Shown here piece by piece: positions 3,916-11,831 of a stretch of DNA of 64,000 nt. The notes beneath the pieces were generated by a model. It was given only the letters and a program-made list of their open reading frames with translations, made no database searches and was not told the origin of the DNA. Where the stretch lies: positions 62,001 through 126,000 of the forward strand of contig NZ_JADOVH010000003.1 of NCBI RefSeq assembly GCF_015751965.1. Direction: 5' to 3'. The position numbers and the translations under genes are program-made. The stretch's first letter is position 1; the number at the start of each line of letters is the position of its first letter. The stretch comes from Frigoribacterium sp. CG_9.8. GTDB lineage: Bacteria > Actinomycetota > Actinomycetes > Actinomycetales > Microbacteriaceae.

Positions 3916-4147
3916 CCCCCTACAGCTATCCGGTCGCATTGGCAAGGGTCATTCTGAATCCGTGCAATAATCAATCCAAGGCCCTTTCAGGTTTGCTTCA
4001 TTCGAACGCAGCACCACTGCGCAAGAGTGTGGAACTTGACATGGGTCTTAGTGCTGCCCGAAAAAACCCGGCTATGCGTCGGACAAGGTCAGTGCTCCCA
4101 GTGATGGGCGTGTAACGCCTGACGATCTACTAGTGAAAGGTGACCCA

Positions 4148-5548
4148 ATGGCCACCCGATCCAAAACCACTGCCGTCGCAGAACCGGACGCCGCTACCGA
4201 GGTCACTGTCGATCTCGCTGACGCCGTTGATCTGAAGACAGCACCAGCCAAGACAACTCCAGCCAAGACAACGGCAGCCAAGACAGCGGCGGCTGCGAAG
4301 GCAGCGCCTGCAAAAAAGGCACCACTGAAAAAGCCTGTTGTCAAGCGTGCCTCGAAGGCTGCAACCTCAGGGGATGAGCAAGGCGGCCCCTCGGATGAAG
4401 CAGAGGTCGTTGTCACAAGCCGGAAAAACGGCGTCGCCAAGGATGCTGATGGCAAGAATGCCGATGCGAAAGATGCCGACGCCAAAGACGCTGACGCTAA
4501 GGATGAGTCGTCCGAGGATTCGGACGAGGACAAGGACGAGAAAACCGCGGAGATACTGCCCTCGGGTGCGCTCGTACTGTCTCTTGTTGACGATGAGGAT
4601 GAAGTCCCGGTCTACTCCTCCGCAATCACCGGCGCGACGGCCGATCCGGTCAAGGACTACCTCAAACAGATCGGGAAGGTCGCTCTTCTCAACGCTGCCG
4701 AGGAAGTCGAACTCGCCATGCGAATCGAGGCCGGTCTGTTCGCGGAGGACAAGCTGGCAGACATGACGCCCGCCGAACTCAAGTCACAGCTCGGTCGCGA
4801 GCTCAACTGGGTCGCCAAGGATGGACAGCGCGCGAAAAGCCATCTGCTCGGGGCGAACCTCCGCCTGGTCGTATCGCTCGCCAAGCGCTATACCGGGCGT
4901 GGAATGCAGTTTCTCGATCTCATTCAGGAGGGTAACCTCGGCCTTATCCGCGCTGTAGAAAAATTCGACTACACCAAAGGCTTCAAGTTCTCGACCTACG
5001 CCACGTGGTGGATCCGTCAAGCTATTACGCGCGCCATGGCCGACCAGGCCCGCACGATCCGAATCCCCGTGCATATGGTCGAGGTCATCAACAAGCTCGC
5101 GCGCGTGCAGCGACAGATGCTCCAGGACCTGGGGCGCGAACCCACGCCGGAGGAGTTGAGCCGCGAGCTCGATATGACCCCGGAAAAGGTCATCGAGGTG
5201 CAGAAGTACGGGCGCGAACCGATCTCGCTTCACACCCCGCTCGGTGAAGACGGCGACAGCGAGTTCGGTGACCTCATCGAGGACACCGAAGCTGTCGTGC
5301 CGGCTGATGCTGTGGGCTTCACGATGCTCCAGAAGCAACTGGAGTCACTGCTCGACTCGCTGTCCGAGCGAGAGGCCGGGGTAATTCGCATGCGTTTTGG
5401 CCTCGGTGATGGCATGCCGAAGACCCTCGATCAGATCGGTGACACCTTCGGTGTCACACGCGAGCGAATCCGGCAGATTGAGTCGAAGACGATGGCGAAG
5501 TTGCGTCATCCGTCGCGGTCGCAGTCGCTGCGGGACTACCTCGAGTAG
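4148..5548 (+). CDS. sigA: RNA polymerase primary sigma factor (SigA/HrdB type)
   Basis: 466-residue vegetative sigma-70 factor. Residues 1-140 are a low-complexity tail, first Lys/Ala/Pro/Thr-rich and then an acidic Asp-Ala-Lys repeat. Conserved regions follow: 1.2 ([16 protein letters not shown]), 2.1-2.4 with the [16 protein letters not shown] block that melts and reads the -10, region 3, and region 4.2 with the helix-turn-helix [12 protein letters not shown] that reads the -35. Downstream of a possible GTG at 4133, the ATG at 4148 is preferred because AAAGGTGA lies 7 nt before it. The 217-bp upstream gap contains a TTGACA at 4036-4041 without a convincing -10. A CofE-like gene follows 12 bp downstream. 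Confidence 0.96.
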
Positions 5549-5560
5549 ACCCGGAACGAC

Positions 5561-6268
5561 ATGGTGATGGGTTCTGAAGCAAATGAAGGCAAGGCTCTCG
5601 AAACGGAGCTTGATGGTGTGCGCTACGAGCGCATCCCGATCAAGACCCGGCTCGTCGGCCCAACCGACGACATCGTGGAAATCGTGACAACATTCGCGCA
5701 CTCCGTCGTGCGGCCGGGCGACATTCTGTTCGTCACCGAGAAGATTGTGGCCATCACTCAGGGCCGCGCTTATCCGGTTGACGAGATCACACCGCGACCG
5801 CTCGCGACCCGGCTGTCTCGCTACGTCACTCGCACACCCTCCGGTATCGGTCTTGGGCTGCCGGAGACCATGGAGATGGCCCTGCGCGAATGCGGCACTC
5901 CGCGCATCCTTTTCGCCGCTGCCGTTGCCGTAGTAACGAAGCCGTTTGGTCGGCGTGGCGACTTCTATCGGGTAGCGGGCCCCAAGGCACGCGGCATCGA
6001 CGGCCCGACAAGTGGAACGATCCCGCCCTACAACTCACAGGTGGTGCTCGCGCCGGAACGGCCGTCAGAGGTCGCTGCTGTTCTGCGCGCCGCGCTGGGC
6101 ACTCCGGTCGACGTGCTCATCGTCGACATCAATGATTTCGGTGGCAACGTGCTCGGTTCAACGCTTGACCGCACAGCAAATCGACTGATGGAACGAATCC
6201 TGGGGGATAATCCTCTCGGCCAGGGGCACCAATCGACGCCGCTCGGTGTGATCCGCCGCGTCGTCTAG
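5561..6268 (+). CDS. CofE-like coenzyme F420-0:L-glutamate ligase family protein
   Basis: 235-residue protein of the F420_ligase family. CofE adds L-glutamate to F420-0 using GTP. The N-terminal KTRLVGPTDDIVEIV and GDILFVTEKIVAITQGR segments and the DINDFGGNVLG stretch near residue 190 match the CofE fold. The usual C-terminal nitroreductase/dehydrogenase half of FbiB is absent. No other F420 biosynthesis gene (cofC, cofD, fbiC) lies in the window. It sits 12 bp after sigA and next to an ATP-grasp ligase and two racemase-like genes, so a role in adding an amino acid to another acceptor, such as a cell-wall peptide, is possible. An alternative ATG lies at 5567. True F420 biosynthesis remains possible if the other genes lie elsewhere. 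Confidence 0.82.
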   Translation: MVMGSEANEGKALETELDGVRYERIPIKTRLVGPTDDIVEIVTTFAHSVVRPGDILFVTEKIVAITQGRAYPVDEITPRPLATRLSRYVTRTPSGIGLGLPETMEMALRECGTPRILFAAAVAVVTKPFGRRGDFYRVAGPKARGIDGPTSGTIPPYNSQVVLAPERPSEVAAVLRAALGTPVDVLIVDINDFGGNVLGSTLDRTANRLMERILGDNPLGQGHQSTPLGVIRRVV

Positions 6269-6307
6269 GCCGGCACGCGAACGAGCATGCGGGTGCGGGT
6301 TCGCCTC

Positions 6308-7495
6308 TCAGAAACCAACGTACTGCTGGTAGCGCGCCCGGTTCCCAGTGCGGATCCCCGTGGCGCTTGGCTTGTTTTCGTAGACTCCGGCAGCCCAGTT
6401 GCCCTCCACGAGCACCGGTCCGTTCTCGCCGATGACCACGTCCCAGCCCACGTACTGCACCTGTGGTACGACACGGCATGCCAAATCGATGAAGATGAAC
6501 AACTCGGGGGTCATTGGCAGCTGGAAGTCGACGATTGATACGCCGGATTCCGGATGGGTCGAATACACGTTCTCGTGCGAGTCGTACCCGGGACCGCGAG
6601 AATGGCCCTGCATATCGAGCATCGAGAAGAATCCCCCGTAGGTCTGCTGGTCACTCGCCTGGCCGCGGCCGAACTTCTGCGCCATTGCGAGCACGTGGGT
6701 GTTCTGACCGTCGAAGAATGTGGTGACGCGGGTGGTGTTTGCGGTGCCAGGGCACAGAGCGGCGAGTGTCGGGTGCTGCGTGATGTACTCCTCGAGGAGG
6801 TTTTGCCCCTTCGCGAGCATCGAACTGCGAAGTCCGTCCCAGTCGGTGATGAGAGCCGCCTCATAGCGTTCGACGCCGTGTCCCGAGTCGCTGAACGGAA
6901 CTTTCCCCATGACGCGTTCGTGTTTTTCGACGAACGCGCGCAGCTGGGCATCCGTCGTTTCGCGCACGTCGAGCCACTCGCGGCCCAACAGGTCAGCGAA
7001 GCGGCGATTGAACTCGAGCTTGTCGTGGAACAGCCCGCGGTACTCGGGCTGGTCGTACTTCATGGCGATGTGGTTGGAGAGCGAATTAGTCATGTAGGTG
7101 ACTCGCTCCCGGCGGGTCAGAATGGCGAAATCGCAGTCGACATAGTCCTGAAATGCCGTGTTGCGAAATCCCGCCGACCACAGCATGTCAACCACAATCA
7201 GAGCTACCGGCTTGTTGAACTGCACAGCTACGCCGCGGGCCCGGATCAGGACGGATGCCGCATCAAATCCACGAACCCGACGTGCGAGATACTGAATGCG
7301 ATTTTTCAGGCCGAGGCTCTGTGAATTGGCGGTGGCTCTGGTGTTAGCGATTGTTCCACTCCCGTCGATGACCGATGACCGGTATACAGTCAGATCGACA
7401 ATCCTAACCGGCGAGCTGCCCAGCGCCCGGCGAGCAGCGCGATGAGGCGGTATTCTCGAGGTCGTGCCAGCGTGCGCTGGTGGAGAGGGACGCAT
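6308..7495 (-). CDS. ATP-grasp ligase, sugar-transfer-associated ATP-grasp family; start uncertain
   Basis: ATP-grasp fold ligase, which would form an amide, thioester or similar bond through an acyl-phosphate. The segments VLVEGNWAAGVYENKP near the C-terminus, QYVGWDVVIGENGPV and NTTRVTTFFDG fit the metal- and ATP-binding half of the fold. The substrate is unknown. The open frame reaches an ATG at 7495, but that codon lies 2 nt from the divergent racemase-like ATG at 7498. The first 60 codons are poor in family features, and homologous sequence seems to begin near LKNRIQYL at about 7309, where only CTG is in frame. A non-ATG start between 7300 and 7400 is likely. Its neighbours suggest an amino-acid or peptide ligase. 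Confidence 0.75.
   Translation of the reverse strand: MRPSPPAHAGTTSRIPPHRAARRALGSSPVRIVDLTVYRSSVIDGSGTIANTRATANSQSLGLKNRIQYLARRVRGFDAASVLIRARGVAVQFNKPVALIVVDMLWSAGFRNTAFQDYVDCDFAILTRRERVTYMTNSLSNHIAMKYDQPEYRGLFHDKLEFNRRFADLLGREWLDVRETTDAQLRAFVEKHERVMGKVPFSDSGHGVERYEAALITDWDGLRSSMLAKGQNLLEEYITQHPTLAALCPGTANTTRVTTFFDGQNTHVLAMAQKFGRGQASDQQTYGGFFSMLDMQGHSRGPGYDSHENVYSTHPESGVSIVDFQLPMTPELFIFIDLACRVVPQVQYVGWDVVIGENGPVLVEGNWAAGVYENKPSATGIRTGNRARYQQYVGF
7451..7456 (+). promoter_or_regulatory. -10-like TATTCT upstream of the racemase-like pair
   Basis: TANNNT hexamer 41 nt before the ATG at 7498. It would give a leader of about 35 nt containing the GGAGAGGG ribosome-binding site at 7482-7489. It overlaps the 5' part of the opposite-strand ATP-grasp frame. 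Confidence 0.35.
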
Positions 7496-7497
7496 CG

Positions 7498-8133
7498 ATG
7501 CAGGCCAATAGCTGGCGAGCCACAGCTCGAATTGATCTGGCGGCCATCCGACAAAATCTTGTCGTTCTTACTTCGCGCTACGGCACCAAAAAGTACGTTG
7601 CGGATATCGCCGCCGATGCCTACGGGCACGGTACGTCCGAGGTCGGCCGGCTTGCTCGCAAAGCGGCGGTGACAGTGTCGGAAAGCTCTAACCCGCTTGG
7701 AGGAGAGCTGTACGGACTCACCCGCGACCCGCTCTTGCATGCTGCCATGCGTGTGAGCGCCCTGGTGATCGCTACGAAAACCATCGATGCGGGAGAGGGA
7801 GTCTCCTACGGGTATACCTGGCATGCCCCGACGCGCACCAACCTTGCACTCGTCGGGATCGGTTATGCCGATGGTCTTGATCGGAGCGCAAGCAACGTGG
7901 GATCCCTTCTTCTCGGTGGGGTAGAGCATCGCATCGTGGGGCGTGTGGCGATGAATGCCCTCGTGCTCGACCTGGGTCAGCATTCCGCCGCCATCGGTGA
8001 CGAGGCTGTGGTCTTCGGTGATCCGGCTGTTGGCGAGCCAGCCGTCGGGGACTGGGCCGGGCAGCTCGAGCGCCCGTGCGCAGAAATCGTCGCTGTTTTC
8101 GGTAGCCACCTGCCGCGGGAGTACCGATGGTAG
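7498..8133 (+). CDS. Internally truncated alanine-racemase-fold protein lacking the PLP lysine
   Basis: 211-residue protein related to fold-III alanine racemases (usually 360-390). Residues 8-45 resemble the racemase N-terminus, but the PLP motif V-K-A-D-A-Y-G-H-G reads I-A-A-D-A-Y-G-H-G, so the lysine is replaced by Ala38. Most of the TIM barrel is missing: the sequence passes from about residue 58 to GELYGLTRDP. The C-terminal beta domain is well preserved: GEGVSYG (99-105), IGYADG with the catalytic-type Tyr123, and VGRVAMN with Met152, normally supplied to the partner's active site. It cannot bind PLP alone. Its stop overlaps the next racemase start by 7 bp, implying coupled synthesis. 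A heteromer subunit is the preferred reading; a decaying duplicate is the alternative. The start is set by GGAGAGGG 8 nt upstream. Confidence 0.75.
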   Translation: MQANSWRATARIDLAAIRQNLVVLTSRYGTKKYVADIAADAYGHGTSEVGRLARKAAVTVSESSNPLGGELYGLTRDPLLHAAMRVSALVIATKTIDAGEGVSYGYTWHAPTRTNLALVGIGYADGLDRSASNVGSLLLGGVEHRIVGRVAMNALVLDLGQHSAAIGDEAVVFGDPAVGEPAVGDWAGQLERPCAEIVAVFGSHLPREYRW

Positions 8134-9209
8134 TGGACCTGCCGCAGACCGCACCGACGGCTACGATCGACCTCTCCGCCTATCGTCGCAACCTCGCACG
8201 GCTGGCCGCGCGGGTTGCTCCGTGTGCGCTGATGGCTGTCGTCAAGGCGGATGCTTACGGACACGGCCTGGTCCCGGTCGCGCGCGCGGCAGTAGCGGCC
8301 GGGGTCGAGTGGATCGGCACGATCGACGTCGAAACGGGCCTCGAGCTGCGGCGAAACGGCATCCCTCGCGATGTGGCGGTGCTCACTTGGCAGCTCGCCC
8401 CGAACGAGGACTATGCCGCGGCAATCGAGGCCGAGCTGGATTTCGGGGTCTCGACCATTGGCCAGCTGGAGGAAATCGTGGCTGTCTGCGCCTCCCGCCG
8501 CGCGCGGGTACACCTCAAAATCGACACTGGCCTCCATCGCAACGGCGCGAGTGTCGAGGAGTGGCCGGCTCTCGTGGCACGCGCGCTTGCGCTGTCGCGC
8601 AGCATGGAGATCGTTGGAGTATGGACACACATCGCGGAGGCGTCGGAGAGCGAGGACTCTGCCGCGATCGATCGCTTCTCCGCTGCCCTCGCGGTCGCTG
8701 AAGAATTGGGTGCGTCACCGACTGTCCGACATCTCGGAGCCAGCGCCGCCGCATTCACCCGCGCCGATGCGCGGTTCGATCTGGTGCGGATTGGTGCGTT
8801 TTCCTACGGAATTTCCCCCGGGGACGGGGTTTCGCCCTCATCGCTCGGACTTGAGCCCGTAATGACACTGACGGCTCCGGTGACAGCCGTGAATCTCGGC
8901 ATGGCGACGATTGCAATCGGCTACGGCGATGGGATCCCTAGCGCCGCGGCCGGGCGTGTACGGGTCGTGATCGACGGCCGCCCGTACATGATCGTCTCAG
9001 TGCAACTCGATCGCCTCACGATAGATATCGGAGATGCCACCGTGCGCCCGGGCGACACCGCTGCACTGTTTGGCGCCGGCGCACACGGCGAGCTGACTCT
9101 CCAGGACTGGGCCGACGCGCTCGGCACGATTGGCGAAGAAATTGTCACCCGGCTCAGTCCGCGCATCCGGCGTCGCTTTTTTTCTGAGGGTGTCGAACTT
9201 AACCGGTGA
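8127..9209 (+). CDS. Alanine-racemase-family protein with intact PLP barrel and reduced C-terminal domain
   Basis: 360-residue fold-III PLP racemase. Barrel residues are conserved: PLP Lys40 in VVKADAYGHG, Arg138 in KIDTGLHRNG, His168 in THIAE, Ser206 and Arg221. The C-terminal domain is unusual. The GE-x-VSYG-x-TY segment is missing, so the chain goes from VTAVNLG straight to IGYGDG (Tyr266 kept). The usual GR-V-C-M-D-Q becomes S-V-Q-L-D-R, losing the Met and Arg. These are elements retained in the upstream partner at 7498. It may be the cell's alanine racemase, or one acting on another amino acid; the window does not show whether a standard alr exists elsewhere. Alternative GTG start at 8133. 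Confidence 0.82.
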   Translation: MVVDLPQTAPTATIDLSAYRRNLARLAARVAPCALMAVVKADAYGHGLVPVARAAVAAGVEWIGTIDVETGLELRRNGIPRDVAVLTWQLAPNEDYAAAIEAELDFGVSTIGQLEEIVAVCASRRARVHLKIDTGLHRNGASVEEWPALVARALALSRSMEIVGVWTHIAEASESEDSAAIDRFSAALAVAEELGASPTVRHLGASAAAFTRADARFDLVRIGAFSYGISPGDGVSPSSLGLEPVMTLTAPVTAVNLGMATIAIGYGDGIPSAAAGRVRVVIDGRPYMIVSVQLDRLTIDIGDATVRPGDTAALFGAGAHGELTLQDWADALGTIGEEIVTRLSPRIRRRFFSEGVELNR

Positions 9210-9657: not shown

Positions 9658-9663
9658 TAGTGT
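9658..9663 (+). promoter_or_regulatory. -10-like TAGTGT upstream of parE
   Basis: TANNNT hexamer that would give a leader of about 60 nt ending in the strong GAAGGAGA ribosome-binding site at 9719-9726. A small inverted repeat GTGTTGAACAC (9660-9670) overlaps it. Confidence 0.3.
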
Positions 9664-9731
9664 TGAACACGGCCCCGAGAGGATCCATTCCTTGCATCAG
9701 CGATGTTGGCGGCGCCGCGAAGGAGATATGC

Positions 9732-11831
9732 GTGGCGAGCTCGGACTACTCCGCACGACACCTCTCGGTGCTCGAGGGGCTGGAGGCGGTGCGAAAGCGC
9801 CCGGGTATGTATATCGGCTCGACCGATTCGCGTGGGCTGATGCACTGCCTGTGGGAGATCATCGATAATTCTGTCGACGAGGCGCTCGGAGGCCACGGCG
9901 ATGAGATCAGCGTTGTACTACACGCCGATAACAGCATCGAAGTTCGCGACCGCGCGCGGGGGATCCCCGTTGATATCGAGCCGAAGACCGGCCTCTCCGG
10001 AGTCGAGGTTGTCTTCACCAAGCTCCACGCTGGAGGCAAGTTCGGCAGCGGGTCCTACGCCGCCTCCGGTGGACTGCACGGCGTGGGAGCATCCGTTGTC
10101 AATGCACTGTCAGAACGTCTTGACGTCGAAGTCGATCGTGACGGCAAGACCTGGGCGATGTCATTCCACCGCGGTGAGCCCGGCAGCTTCGCTGACATTT
10201 CCGGTGGCCCGAGGGCGGATGCGGTGTTCACCCCGTTCGAGAACACGAGCGAGTTGAGGGTGACTGGCACGGTCGCTCGCGGCGTCACTGGCACCCGTAT
10301 CCGTTACTGGGCAGACCCACAGATCTTTTCTCGCGGTACGACCTTCCAGAGCGATGAACTTGCGACCCGTGCGCGCCAGACTGCATTCCTCGTGCGCGGC
10401 CTCGGTATTGAAATCACCGACCAGCGAGGCGCGGATCCAACCTCTGAGCTGTACCGTTTCGACGGCGGGATCGGCGAATATGTCGACTTCCTCGCTCCCG
10501 ATACCGCCCTCACCGAGACCTGGCGGATGACCGGGACTGGCACATTCTCCGAGACTGTTCCCGTGCTCGACGATTCGGGCCACATGGTGGCCACCGAGCT
10601 CGAACGGGAGTGTGAGGTCGATATCGCACTGCGCTGGGGTACCGGGTACGAGACGGTGTTCCGCAGCTTCGTGAATATCATCGCCACCCCAAAGGGCGGT
10701 ACCCACCAGTCCGGCTTCGAAGCCGGAATGCTCAAGTTCCTGCGGTCGCAAGTGGAGCAGAACGCGCGCCGGCTCAAGGTTGGCACGGGGGCGAACAGCA
10801 CCGAGAGGATCGAGAGGGACGACATCCTCGCCGGTCTCACGGCGGTGCTGACCGTGCGGCTGCCTGAGCCTCAGTTCGAGGGCCAGACGAAGGAGATCCT
10901 GGGGACTCCCGCCGTGCGCAACATCGTCGCTGCGGTAGTTGCGAAGACAATGGGGGAGAAGTTCGGCTCACCCAAGCGCGACGACAAGACCCAGTCGGCG
11001 CTCGTGCTCGACAAAATCGTCGCGGAGATGAAGTCTCGGGTCTCGGCCCGTGCGCACAAGGAGACACAGCGACGCAAAAATGCCCTGGAAAACTCCTCAT
11101 TGCCGGCGAAGCTGGTGGACTGCCGCAGCTCTGATGTCGCCAACAGTGAACTCTTCATCGTCGAGGGTGACTCCGCGCTTGGAACAGCGAAGCTCGCACG
11201 CGACAGCGAATACCAGGCGCTTCTGCCCATCCGTGGCAAGATCCTTAACGTGCAGAAGGCGTCAGTGTCTGACATGCTCGCAAATAGCGAATGTGCCTCG
11301 ATCATCCAGGTGATCGGTGCCGGCTCCGGGCGCAGCTTCGATCTCACGGCCGCGCGCTACGGCAAGGTGATTATCATGAGCGACGCCGATGTCGACGGTG
11401 CGCACATTCGCACCCTCCTGCTCACGCTTTTCTTCCGCTACATGCCCGACATGATCCGTGACGGACGCGTGTACGCCGCGGTGCCACCGCTGCACCGGGT
11501 GATCGTGATGAACCCCGGCACCAAACCCAATGAGACGATTTACACCTATTCCGAGCAGGAACTGAACGCCGTACTCACCGGTCTCAAGAGGACGAACAAG
11601 CGGTATCAGGATCCCATCCAGCGATACAAGGGACTCGGCGAGATGGATGCCGATCAGCTGGCAAACACGACGATGGATCGGCAGCACCGCACCCTGAGGC
11701 GTGTGCAGATCACGGATGCCGTGAATGCTGAACGCGTCTTCGAACTGCTCATGGGCAATGATGTTGCGCCGCGTAAGGACTTCATCATCGCGGGCTCGGA
11801 TGGACTCTCCCGCGACCGCATCGACGTGTAG
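9732..11831 (+). CDS. parE: DNA topoisomerase IV subunit B
   Basis: 699-residue ATPase subunit of a type IIA topoisomerase, which decatenates chromosomes and relaxes supercoils with ParC. The order is a GHKL ATPase domain (RPGMYIGST, and GGLHGVGASVVNALS for ATP binding), a transducer domain, and a TOPRIM domain with EGDSALGTAKLARD and IMSDADVDGAH. The C-terminus has RYKGLGEMDADQL. The GTG at 9732 was chosen over one at 9660 because GAAGGAGA lies 5 nt before it. The alternative is GyrB, but pairing with the adjacent parC, which lacks a GyrA box, argues for topoisomerase IV. Its 3' end faces parC, with 25 bp between the stop codons. Confidence 0.93.
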   Translation: MASSDYSARHLSVLEGLEAVRKRPGMYIGSTDSRGLMHCLWEIIDNSVDEALGGHGDEISVVLHADNSIEVRDRARGIPVDIEPKTGLSGVEVVFTKLHAGGKFGSGSYAASGGLHGVGASVVNALSERLDVEVDRDGKTWAMSFHRGEPGSFADISGGPRADAVFTPFENTSELRVTGTVARGVTGTRIRYWADPQIFSRGTTFQSDELATRARQTAFLVRGLGIEITDQRGADPTSELYRFDGGIGEYVDFLAPDTALTETWRMTGTGTFSETVPVLDDSGHMVATELERECEVDIALRWGTGYETVFRSFVNIIATPKGGTHQSGFEAGMLKFLRSQVEQNARRLKVGTGANSTERIERDDILAGLTAVLTVRLPEPQFEGQTKEILGTPAVRNIVAAVVAKTMGEKFGSPKRDDKTQSALVLDKIVAEMKSRVSARAHKETQRRKNALENSSLPAKLVDCRSSDVANSELFIVEGDSALGTAKLARDSEYQALLPIRGKILNVQKASVSDMLANSECASIIQVIGAGSGRSFDLTAARYGKVIIMSDADVDGAHIRTLLLTLFFRYMPDMIRDGRVYAAVPPLHRVIVMNPGTKPNETIYTYSEQELNAVLTGLKRTNKRYQDPIQRYKGLGEMDADQLANTTMDRQHRTLRRVQITDAVNAERVFELLMGNDVAPRKDFIIAGSDGLSRDRIDV

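Follow-up and report, generated by a model that had tools for sequence, protein, structure and literature searches.

A putative asymmetric enzyme of the alanine racemase fold formed by two complementary chains in Microbacteriaceae

Alanine racemase, a drug target, is the textbook case of a homodimer whose subunits share their active sites. Two adjacent genes, denoted A and B, in the window (the whole 64,000-nucleotide stretch of the Frigoribacterium sp. CG_9.8 genome that was analysed) very probably (about 90%) encode an obligate heterodimer (A:B) that has the alanine racemase fold and only one functional active site. Such pairs, present in roughly one hundred related genomes, appear to represent a real and widespread asymmetric enzyme for which, judging from sequence comparison, the mechanism can be proposed with high confidence and the substrate with low confidence. 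An obligate heteromeric racemase had been suggested in an earlier note on this DNA, and the suggestion gains support from the conserved losses in both chains, the selection acting on them and the existence of natural fusions. The open-access literature, to which the search was confined, offered among its top-ranked matches no description of an alanine racemase that is split or heterodimeric.

The two genes and the predicted composite site

Both frames are intact (A has an ATG start and a TAG stop), and the overlap between the stop of A and the start of B, which the earlier note reported correctly (Table 1), suggests translational coupling. Reference positions follow the numbering of G. stearothermophilus Alr, with columns assigned by motif in the present analysis. 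By motif, A has Ala38 in the place of the PLP lysine and preserves the GEGVSYG segment (from G99), Tyr123, Arg149 and Met152, the last three being equivalent to Y265', R309' and M312', respectively. In Pfam, A covers the whole Ala_racemase_C profile (105 bits) and matches Ala_racemase_N at profile positions 1-48 only, with 21.6 bits against a cut-off of 24.1. The earlier description of A, with the PLP lysine and the greater part of the barrel lost but GEGVSYG and Tyr123 kept, is thus borne out by both motifs and profiles. An AlphaFold model of the window A built on 37 sequences (pLDDT 91.8, pTM 0.89) finds in Foldseek the alanine racemases of M. tuberculosis and Streptomyces as best matches (TMq about 0.82-0.85), with M. 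tuberculosis Alr 8ahw at the top (TMq 0.84).

Table 1. Features of the window around the A-B pair
Feature	Coordinates	Strand	Basis and occurrence
RpoD-type sigma factor, locus landmark	4133..5548	+	Name from sequence recognition; relative in 35/37 A-B loci
F420_ligase (CofE-like) protein	5561..6268	+	Family profile match; relative in 13/37 A-B loci, one only 36% identical
ATPgrasp_ST protein, divergent; true start probably inside frame	6308..7495	-	Family profile match; relative in 10/37 A-B loci
Putative subunit A: C-terminal (beta) domain of alanine-racemase-fold protein with N-terminal remnant	7498..8133	+	Pfam, residue motifs, AlphaFold, Foldseek
Overlap of A stop and B start, 7 bp	8127..8133	+	Coordinates
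Putative subunit B: complete PLP barrel, degenerate C-terminal domain	8127..9209	+	Pfam, TIGR00492, residue motifs
ParE/GyrB-type topoisomerase subunit, locus landmark	9660..11831	+	Name from sequence recognition; relative in 37/37 A-B loci

The B protein retains, again by motif, Lys40, Tyr44, Lys131, Arg138, His168, Ser206, Arg221 and Gly223, has Leu294 in the place of the motif methionine and contains no GxGVSYG, in agreement with the earlier note, which listed Lys40, Arg138, His168 and Arg221 as kept and the partner motifs as lost. Position 354, on which the earlier note is silent, is Glu337. B scores 191 bits with Ala_racemase_N and matches Ala_racemase_C only from profile position 33. The NCBIfam alr model TIGR00492 (cut-off 168 bits) recognizes B (207.1) and not A (113.7), and the single chain with both halves that the model describes is found in neither. 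B thus has the barrel side of alanine racemase (the PLP lysine together with the PLP- and substrate-binding residues), A has the partner side (Tyr265, Met312 and GVSYG) that is lost or degenerate in B, and Tyr354 is missing. As far as sequence allows one to judge, neither A nor B alone would be able to supply both halves of the site. The genome (2.85 Mb) encodes two further full-length racemases, one at C6 with Tyr354 and one at C1 (L106, G000:C1:961618-962256) with His, not Tyr, at this position.

The available text of PMC3485190 describes the site of this fold as containing Lys39 from one subunit and Tyr265' from the other; in that of PMC3245724, the NH of Met312' binds the carboxylate of bound acetate as it does that of alanine, and Tyr354 belongs to the PLP chain. 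These papers assign Tyr265 and Met312 to the partner, and Tyr354 and Ile352 to the chain that carries PLP. They differ in how they print Arg309: one marks its M. tuberculosis equivalent with a prime (Arg316'), the other gives it unprimed. Because the papers put Tyr265 and Met312 on the partner chain, the residues that A and B each retain appear to be those needed by one A:B site. We infer that the barrel of B would bind PLP on Lys40, that the C-terminal domain of A would cover this PLP site, and that A would provide the second catalytic residue, Tyr123, along with Met152, which would contact the substrate carboxylate, and Arg149. The second, mirror-image site, composed of the barrel of A and the C-terminal domain of B, would be dead, so that its residues would be free to be lost.

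Alternatively, A could act on B in a structural or regulatory way, activating it and giving it no catalytic residues. The precedent is found in the trypanosomatid prozymes of AdoMetDC and deoxyhypusine synthase, where, according to the available parts of PMC5201418 and PMC3663545, an impaired paralog needs an inactive one, and the dead paralog raises the activity of deoxyhypusine synthase 3000-fold (PMC3663545). However, those enzymes are unrelated to A and B and are activated by a dead paralog, whereas A keeps partner-side catalytic residues; these reach the site of the partner in the published structures, as far as the cited text describes them, and the copies in B have been lost. A purely activating role of A therefore appears very unlikely compared to a composite site to which both chains would contribute.

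Conservation, selection and fusion of the pair

A and B were each searched in 150 genomes of the family. An A-like gene lies directly upstream of B in 29 of the 30 B loci listed, and the lone exception (L064, genome G124) is a B located at a contig end; the co-occurrence is in part trivial given that A and B are adjacent. The fetched regions contain 52 tandem pairs, and the profile score marks the first gene as full in 15 of them and not in the other 37. In these 37 A-B pairs, for which the sorting used this score and none of the active-site residues, Lys39 is found in none of the A chains, V-S-Y and Met312 in all 37, and Arg309 in 36, and position 265 is Tyr in 33 and Phe in 4. Conversely, Lys39, Tyr43, Lys129, Arg136, His166, Ser204, Arg219 and Gly221 are each present in 37/37 B chains, which have neither Met312 (0/37) nor V-S-Y (0/37) and carry Asp or Glu at position 354 without exception (37/37). 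Adjacent pairs in Microbacteriaceae, proposed in the earlier note as a check, are thus conserved together with both sets of losses.

A larger set comprises 151 classified loci, with the added regions taken from among the matches listed for a search in which 148 of 398 genomes gave a hit at E <= 1e-60. These include 98 A-B loci, one locus with two A-B pairs, three A-B fusions, 44 full-full tandems, two single full-length genes and three loci scored as 'B only'. None of the 299 chains is unclassifiable, non-intact pairs are always in the order A then B, and there are no A-A, B-B or intact-A pairs among the classified loci, a regularity that the way of assigning chains does not itself produce. 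Since chains in this set were assigned by combinations of the scored residues, the per-residue counts are partly built in: in 103 A chains, Lys39 is never found, V/I-S-Y and Met312 are universal (103 each), Tyr265 is present in 92 and replaced by Phe in 11, and Arg309 is present in 94 and missing in 9. With the same reservation, Lys39, Tyr43, Arg136 and His166 are found in 106/106 B chains, two of which are ended by contig ends, and Ser204, Arg219 and Gly221 in 105/105 readable ones; among the 104 readable at the respective positions, V-S-Y is found in 0, Met312 in 1, Arg309 in 8 and Tyr265 in 39, and in all 104 the Tyr354 of ordinary enzymes is replaced by Asp or Glu. Several of these observations count against the composite site: a tyrosine mechanism would be less convincing for the Phe265 chains, nine A chains have no Arg309, the methionine is present in one B, and the B of the window keeps its own tyrosine (Tyr266).

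The position of the PLP lysine is occupied by Arg in 63 of the 103 A chains, and 62 of the 103 retain Tyr43, a residue of that loop. This loop before AYGHG (residues 38-45 of the window A) may serve the interface; PLP would not be expected to bind there.

The length of A, as gauged by profile match, ranges from nearly full (L072, L074, L085, L092) to the C-terminal domain alone (L081, L086, L088, L091, L093). In one locus (L235, G241:C9:8000-20000), two A-B pairs are located near each other, one with a short A and the other with a longer A. An overlap of 4 bp is found in 25/37 A-B and 11/15 full-full pairs, with starts chosen by script.

This stepwise loss of most of the barrel, along with the faster evolution of A than of B in many pairs, is what could be expected if A were a dying duplicate or pseudogene and B worked alone as a homodimer, the alternative raised in the earlier note. 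Such decay is hardly credible given the rest of the evidence. A is under purifying selection: among the 30 closest pairs in 98 loci, A has a dN/dS (Nei-Gojobori) of 0.06-0.34 and B one of 0.08-0.26, the signature that the earlier note had anticipated for both truncated genes. The frame of A, the absence or disruption of which in close relatives would have spoken for decay according to that note, is open in all 8 other matching genomes of the same genus; a ninth, 78% complete, gave no match. A suspected internal stop in the A of G076 was dismissed, as the frame is open over query positions 9-209 and the TGA is read as the proper end of A. A broken A would be scored as 'B only', and the three such loci among the 151 are two in which B is near a contig end (L238, L310) and one fusion missed by the score threshold (L266). 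Furthermore, A keeps the tyrosine and methionine motifs, fusions exist, and a B homodimer would have to operate without the methionine in 103 of 104 and without Tyr265 in 65 of 104 readable chains. The obligate A:B heterodimer is accordingly the reading that we retain.

Natural A-B fusions are found in four genomes from three genera (L209, which is the same as L123, L210, L261 and L266) and add evidence for the predicted physical A:B complex. The fusion L123/L209, of which 745 aa were used, comes from the MAG Microbacteriaceae RYN_83 and joins B in one frame to an A that is full-length and has no PLP lysine. The same fusion occurs in G299 (L210), 53% identical over query positions 7-745. Both belong to genus g84, where five of six genomes matched, the other three with separate genes. 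Further fusions are present in G250 (L261) and G368 (L266), from two other genera, the latter joining the C-terminal domain of A to B in a single 595-codon frame. An assembly error as the source of the L123 fusion was rejected given that G299 is also fused and that G250 and G368 have fusions of their own. The AlphaFold model of the L123 fusion has pLDDT 83.4 and pTM 0.68, with only two alignment rows expected on the B half (in a test alignment, every A row aligned to the A half); its best Foldseek matches are Alr chains.

Origins of the pair and a second split at the alr locus

In the 44 full-full tandems, exemplified by Herbiconiux, Subtercola and Clavibacter, both the first copy (F1; 40 Tyr and 4 Trp at position 354) and the second copy (F2; 29 Asp and 15 Glu) are intact. 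These tandems differ from A-B in this respect and in their neighbourhood, and share with it the tandem order, as well as Asp/Glu354 and clade membership between F2 and B; an F1-F2 tandem is a plausible ancestor of A-B. Trees were built from 29 of the 103 A chains, 29 B chains, 12 of the 44 full-full pairs and 15 ordinary enzymes. In the barrel tree (70 rows, after removal of the long B_L304, B_L301 and C_L106), B and F2 together make up a single clade (100/97), and monophyly of B on its own is rejected (AU p = 0.0011). Trees of the C-terminal domain are based on a short alignment; in a quick one, A is one group beside five F1 rows (SH-aLRT 92); in later C-domain trees, A is not one group, and a single origin of A is not rejected (AU p = 0.22). 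In six intact F1-F2 pairs (L084, L087, L098, L116, L118, L119), F1 has Cys for Lys129 and F2 has Glu354; in the five of them included in the quick C-domain tree, F1 is nearest to A. These pairs may already be heterodimers with two sites.

At least 40 of the 150 genomes carry A-B (G124, with A beyond the contig end, included) and 16 carry an intact F2, with no overlap (0.005 by simple counting that ignores relatedness). The lack of any genome with both suggests that A-B and F2 do the same job.

A separate split, with Tyr354, is found at the ordinary alr locus. In three Agreia genomes (Agreia sp. Leaf283, Agreia sp. Leaf210 and A. bicolorata), a lysine-bearing Tyr354 chain without V-S-Y and the methionine is followed by a short A-like chain, and the neighbours of this locus match those of the full-length racemase at C6 in the Frigoribacterium genome. 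The same two halves are in one frame in Pseudoclavibacter sp. AY1F1 and Gulosibacter chungangensis. Ala_racemase_N matches above 100 bits in A. bicolorata (G153) and G. chungangensis (G160) are confined to the split or fused enzymes, with matching C-domains, and no intact alanine racemase was found in these two genomes by profile search; gaps in the genomes could conceal another gene. A D-amino-acid aminotransferase (TIGR01121) is above cut-off in 0/5 genomes tested, with no match in two Gulosibacter and weaker matches of up to 63.5 bits in two Agreia. These two species thus seem to have no alanine racemase besides the split or fused alr, and the asymmetric enzyme must make D-alanine if it is made by racemisation. 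Pseudoclavibacter is excluded from this argument by an additional full-length match (G159:C9).

The alr-locus chains fall outside the B + F2 clade in the barrel tree. Two origins of the lopsided architecture, one in the Asp/Glu354 class and one in the Tyr354 class, are well supported by sequence, and more than two are possible.

Neighbourhood, substrate and implications

In addition to the landmarks in Table 1, a ParC relative adjoins the pair in 35/37 A-B loci, and a GatD-like gene is near it in 22/37. One GatD-like gene that was tested belongs to GATase_3 and its adjoining gene combines MurT_C and Mur_ligase_M; a frame similar to this MurT-like one adjoins the GatD-like gene in the three loci inspected. 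The CofE-like gene (13 loci, the window included) and the GatD-like gene (22 loci) are never found together, and a MurT_C match was not found in the window's own genome. At positions 5561-7495 of the window, the CofE-like and divergent ATP-grasp genes stand where relatives have the GatD-like and MurT-like genes, and these two genes may offer another route to modified D-Glu in peptidoglycan.

Among known systems, Alr (a PLP enzyme, TIGR00492; 1xfc, 5fac, 1sft) resembles A and B together in its fold and in the pooled active-site residues except for position 354, and differs in being a homodimer with two equal sites and Tyr354, in contrast to two unequal chains, one predicted site and Asp/Glu354. 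The lysine-preferring Lyr and the broad-specificity Bar (4dza, 4dyj), which have a wider substrate range, resemble B in that position 354 is not Tyr; unlike A-B, they are homodimers with Thr or Ala at 354 according to the available text of PMC3485190, as opposed to the acidic residue in B. Tyr354 narrows the entryway in alanine racemase, and the substrate of A-B may not be alanine because all readable B chains have Asp or Glu there. The same acidic residue, along with Phe265 in some A chains, would also fit a composite PLP site that catalyzes a reaction other than racemisation, such as decarboxylation, or acts as a PLP carrier. This is unlikely, considering that Arg136, His166 and Arg219 are present in every readable B, that most A chains have Tyr265, and that a peptidoglycan-type GatD-like gene accompanies many pairs; racemisation is the preferred reading.

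Given Asp/Glu354, the peptidoglycan-type neighbours and the D-diamino acids reported in member genera, a basic amino acid, Orn or Dab of type-B peptidoglycan bridges, is our tentative candidate for the substrate, at somewhat less than even odds. In the available text of PMC5945732, the wall of Agreia contains L-Dab and D-Orn and that of Subtercola, which has F1-F2, contains Dab; in that of PMC4156110, Rhodoluna lacicola has a D-Ala-D-Dab peptide. The Rhodoluna genome with A-B is a MAG (locus L171). Two observations count against the diamino-acid proposal: among 15 further named genomes an Asp/Glu354 enzyme is found only in Pseudolysinimonas, and none was found among matches at E <= 1e-20 in two Agromyces genomes and one Cryobacterium, the walls of which we take to contain Dab. 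With these exceptions, a simple rule that equates Asp/Glu354 with Dab in the wall is not clean.

The broadest form of the proposal, in which lopsided single-site heterodimers arose at least twice and perhaps three times in one family, the split or fused alr is seemingly the sole alanine racemase in two species, and A-B makes a D-diamino acid of type-B peptidoglycan bridges, is one to which we give a slightly smaller chance of being right than wrong. Two sites have seemingly been reduced to one after duplication, with the stages visible as two intact copies, a nearly full-length degenerate partner, a short partner, a C-terminal domain alone and a re-fused chain, so that the transition from a homomer to an obligate heteromer becomes directly testable on one enzyme. 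For the organisms themselves, A-B is a candidate for the enzyme that supplies the D-Orn or D-Dab of type-B peptidoglycan.
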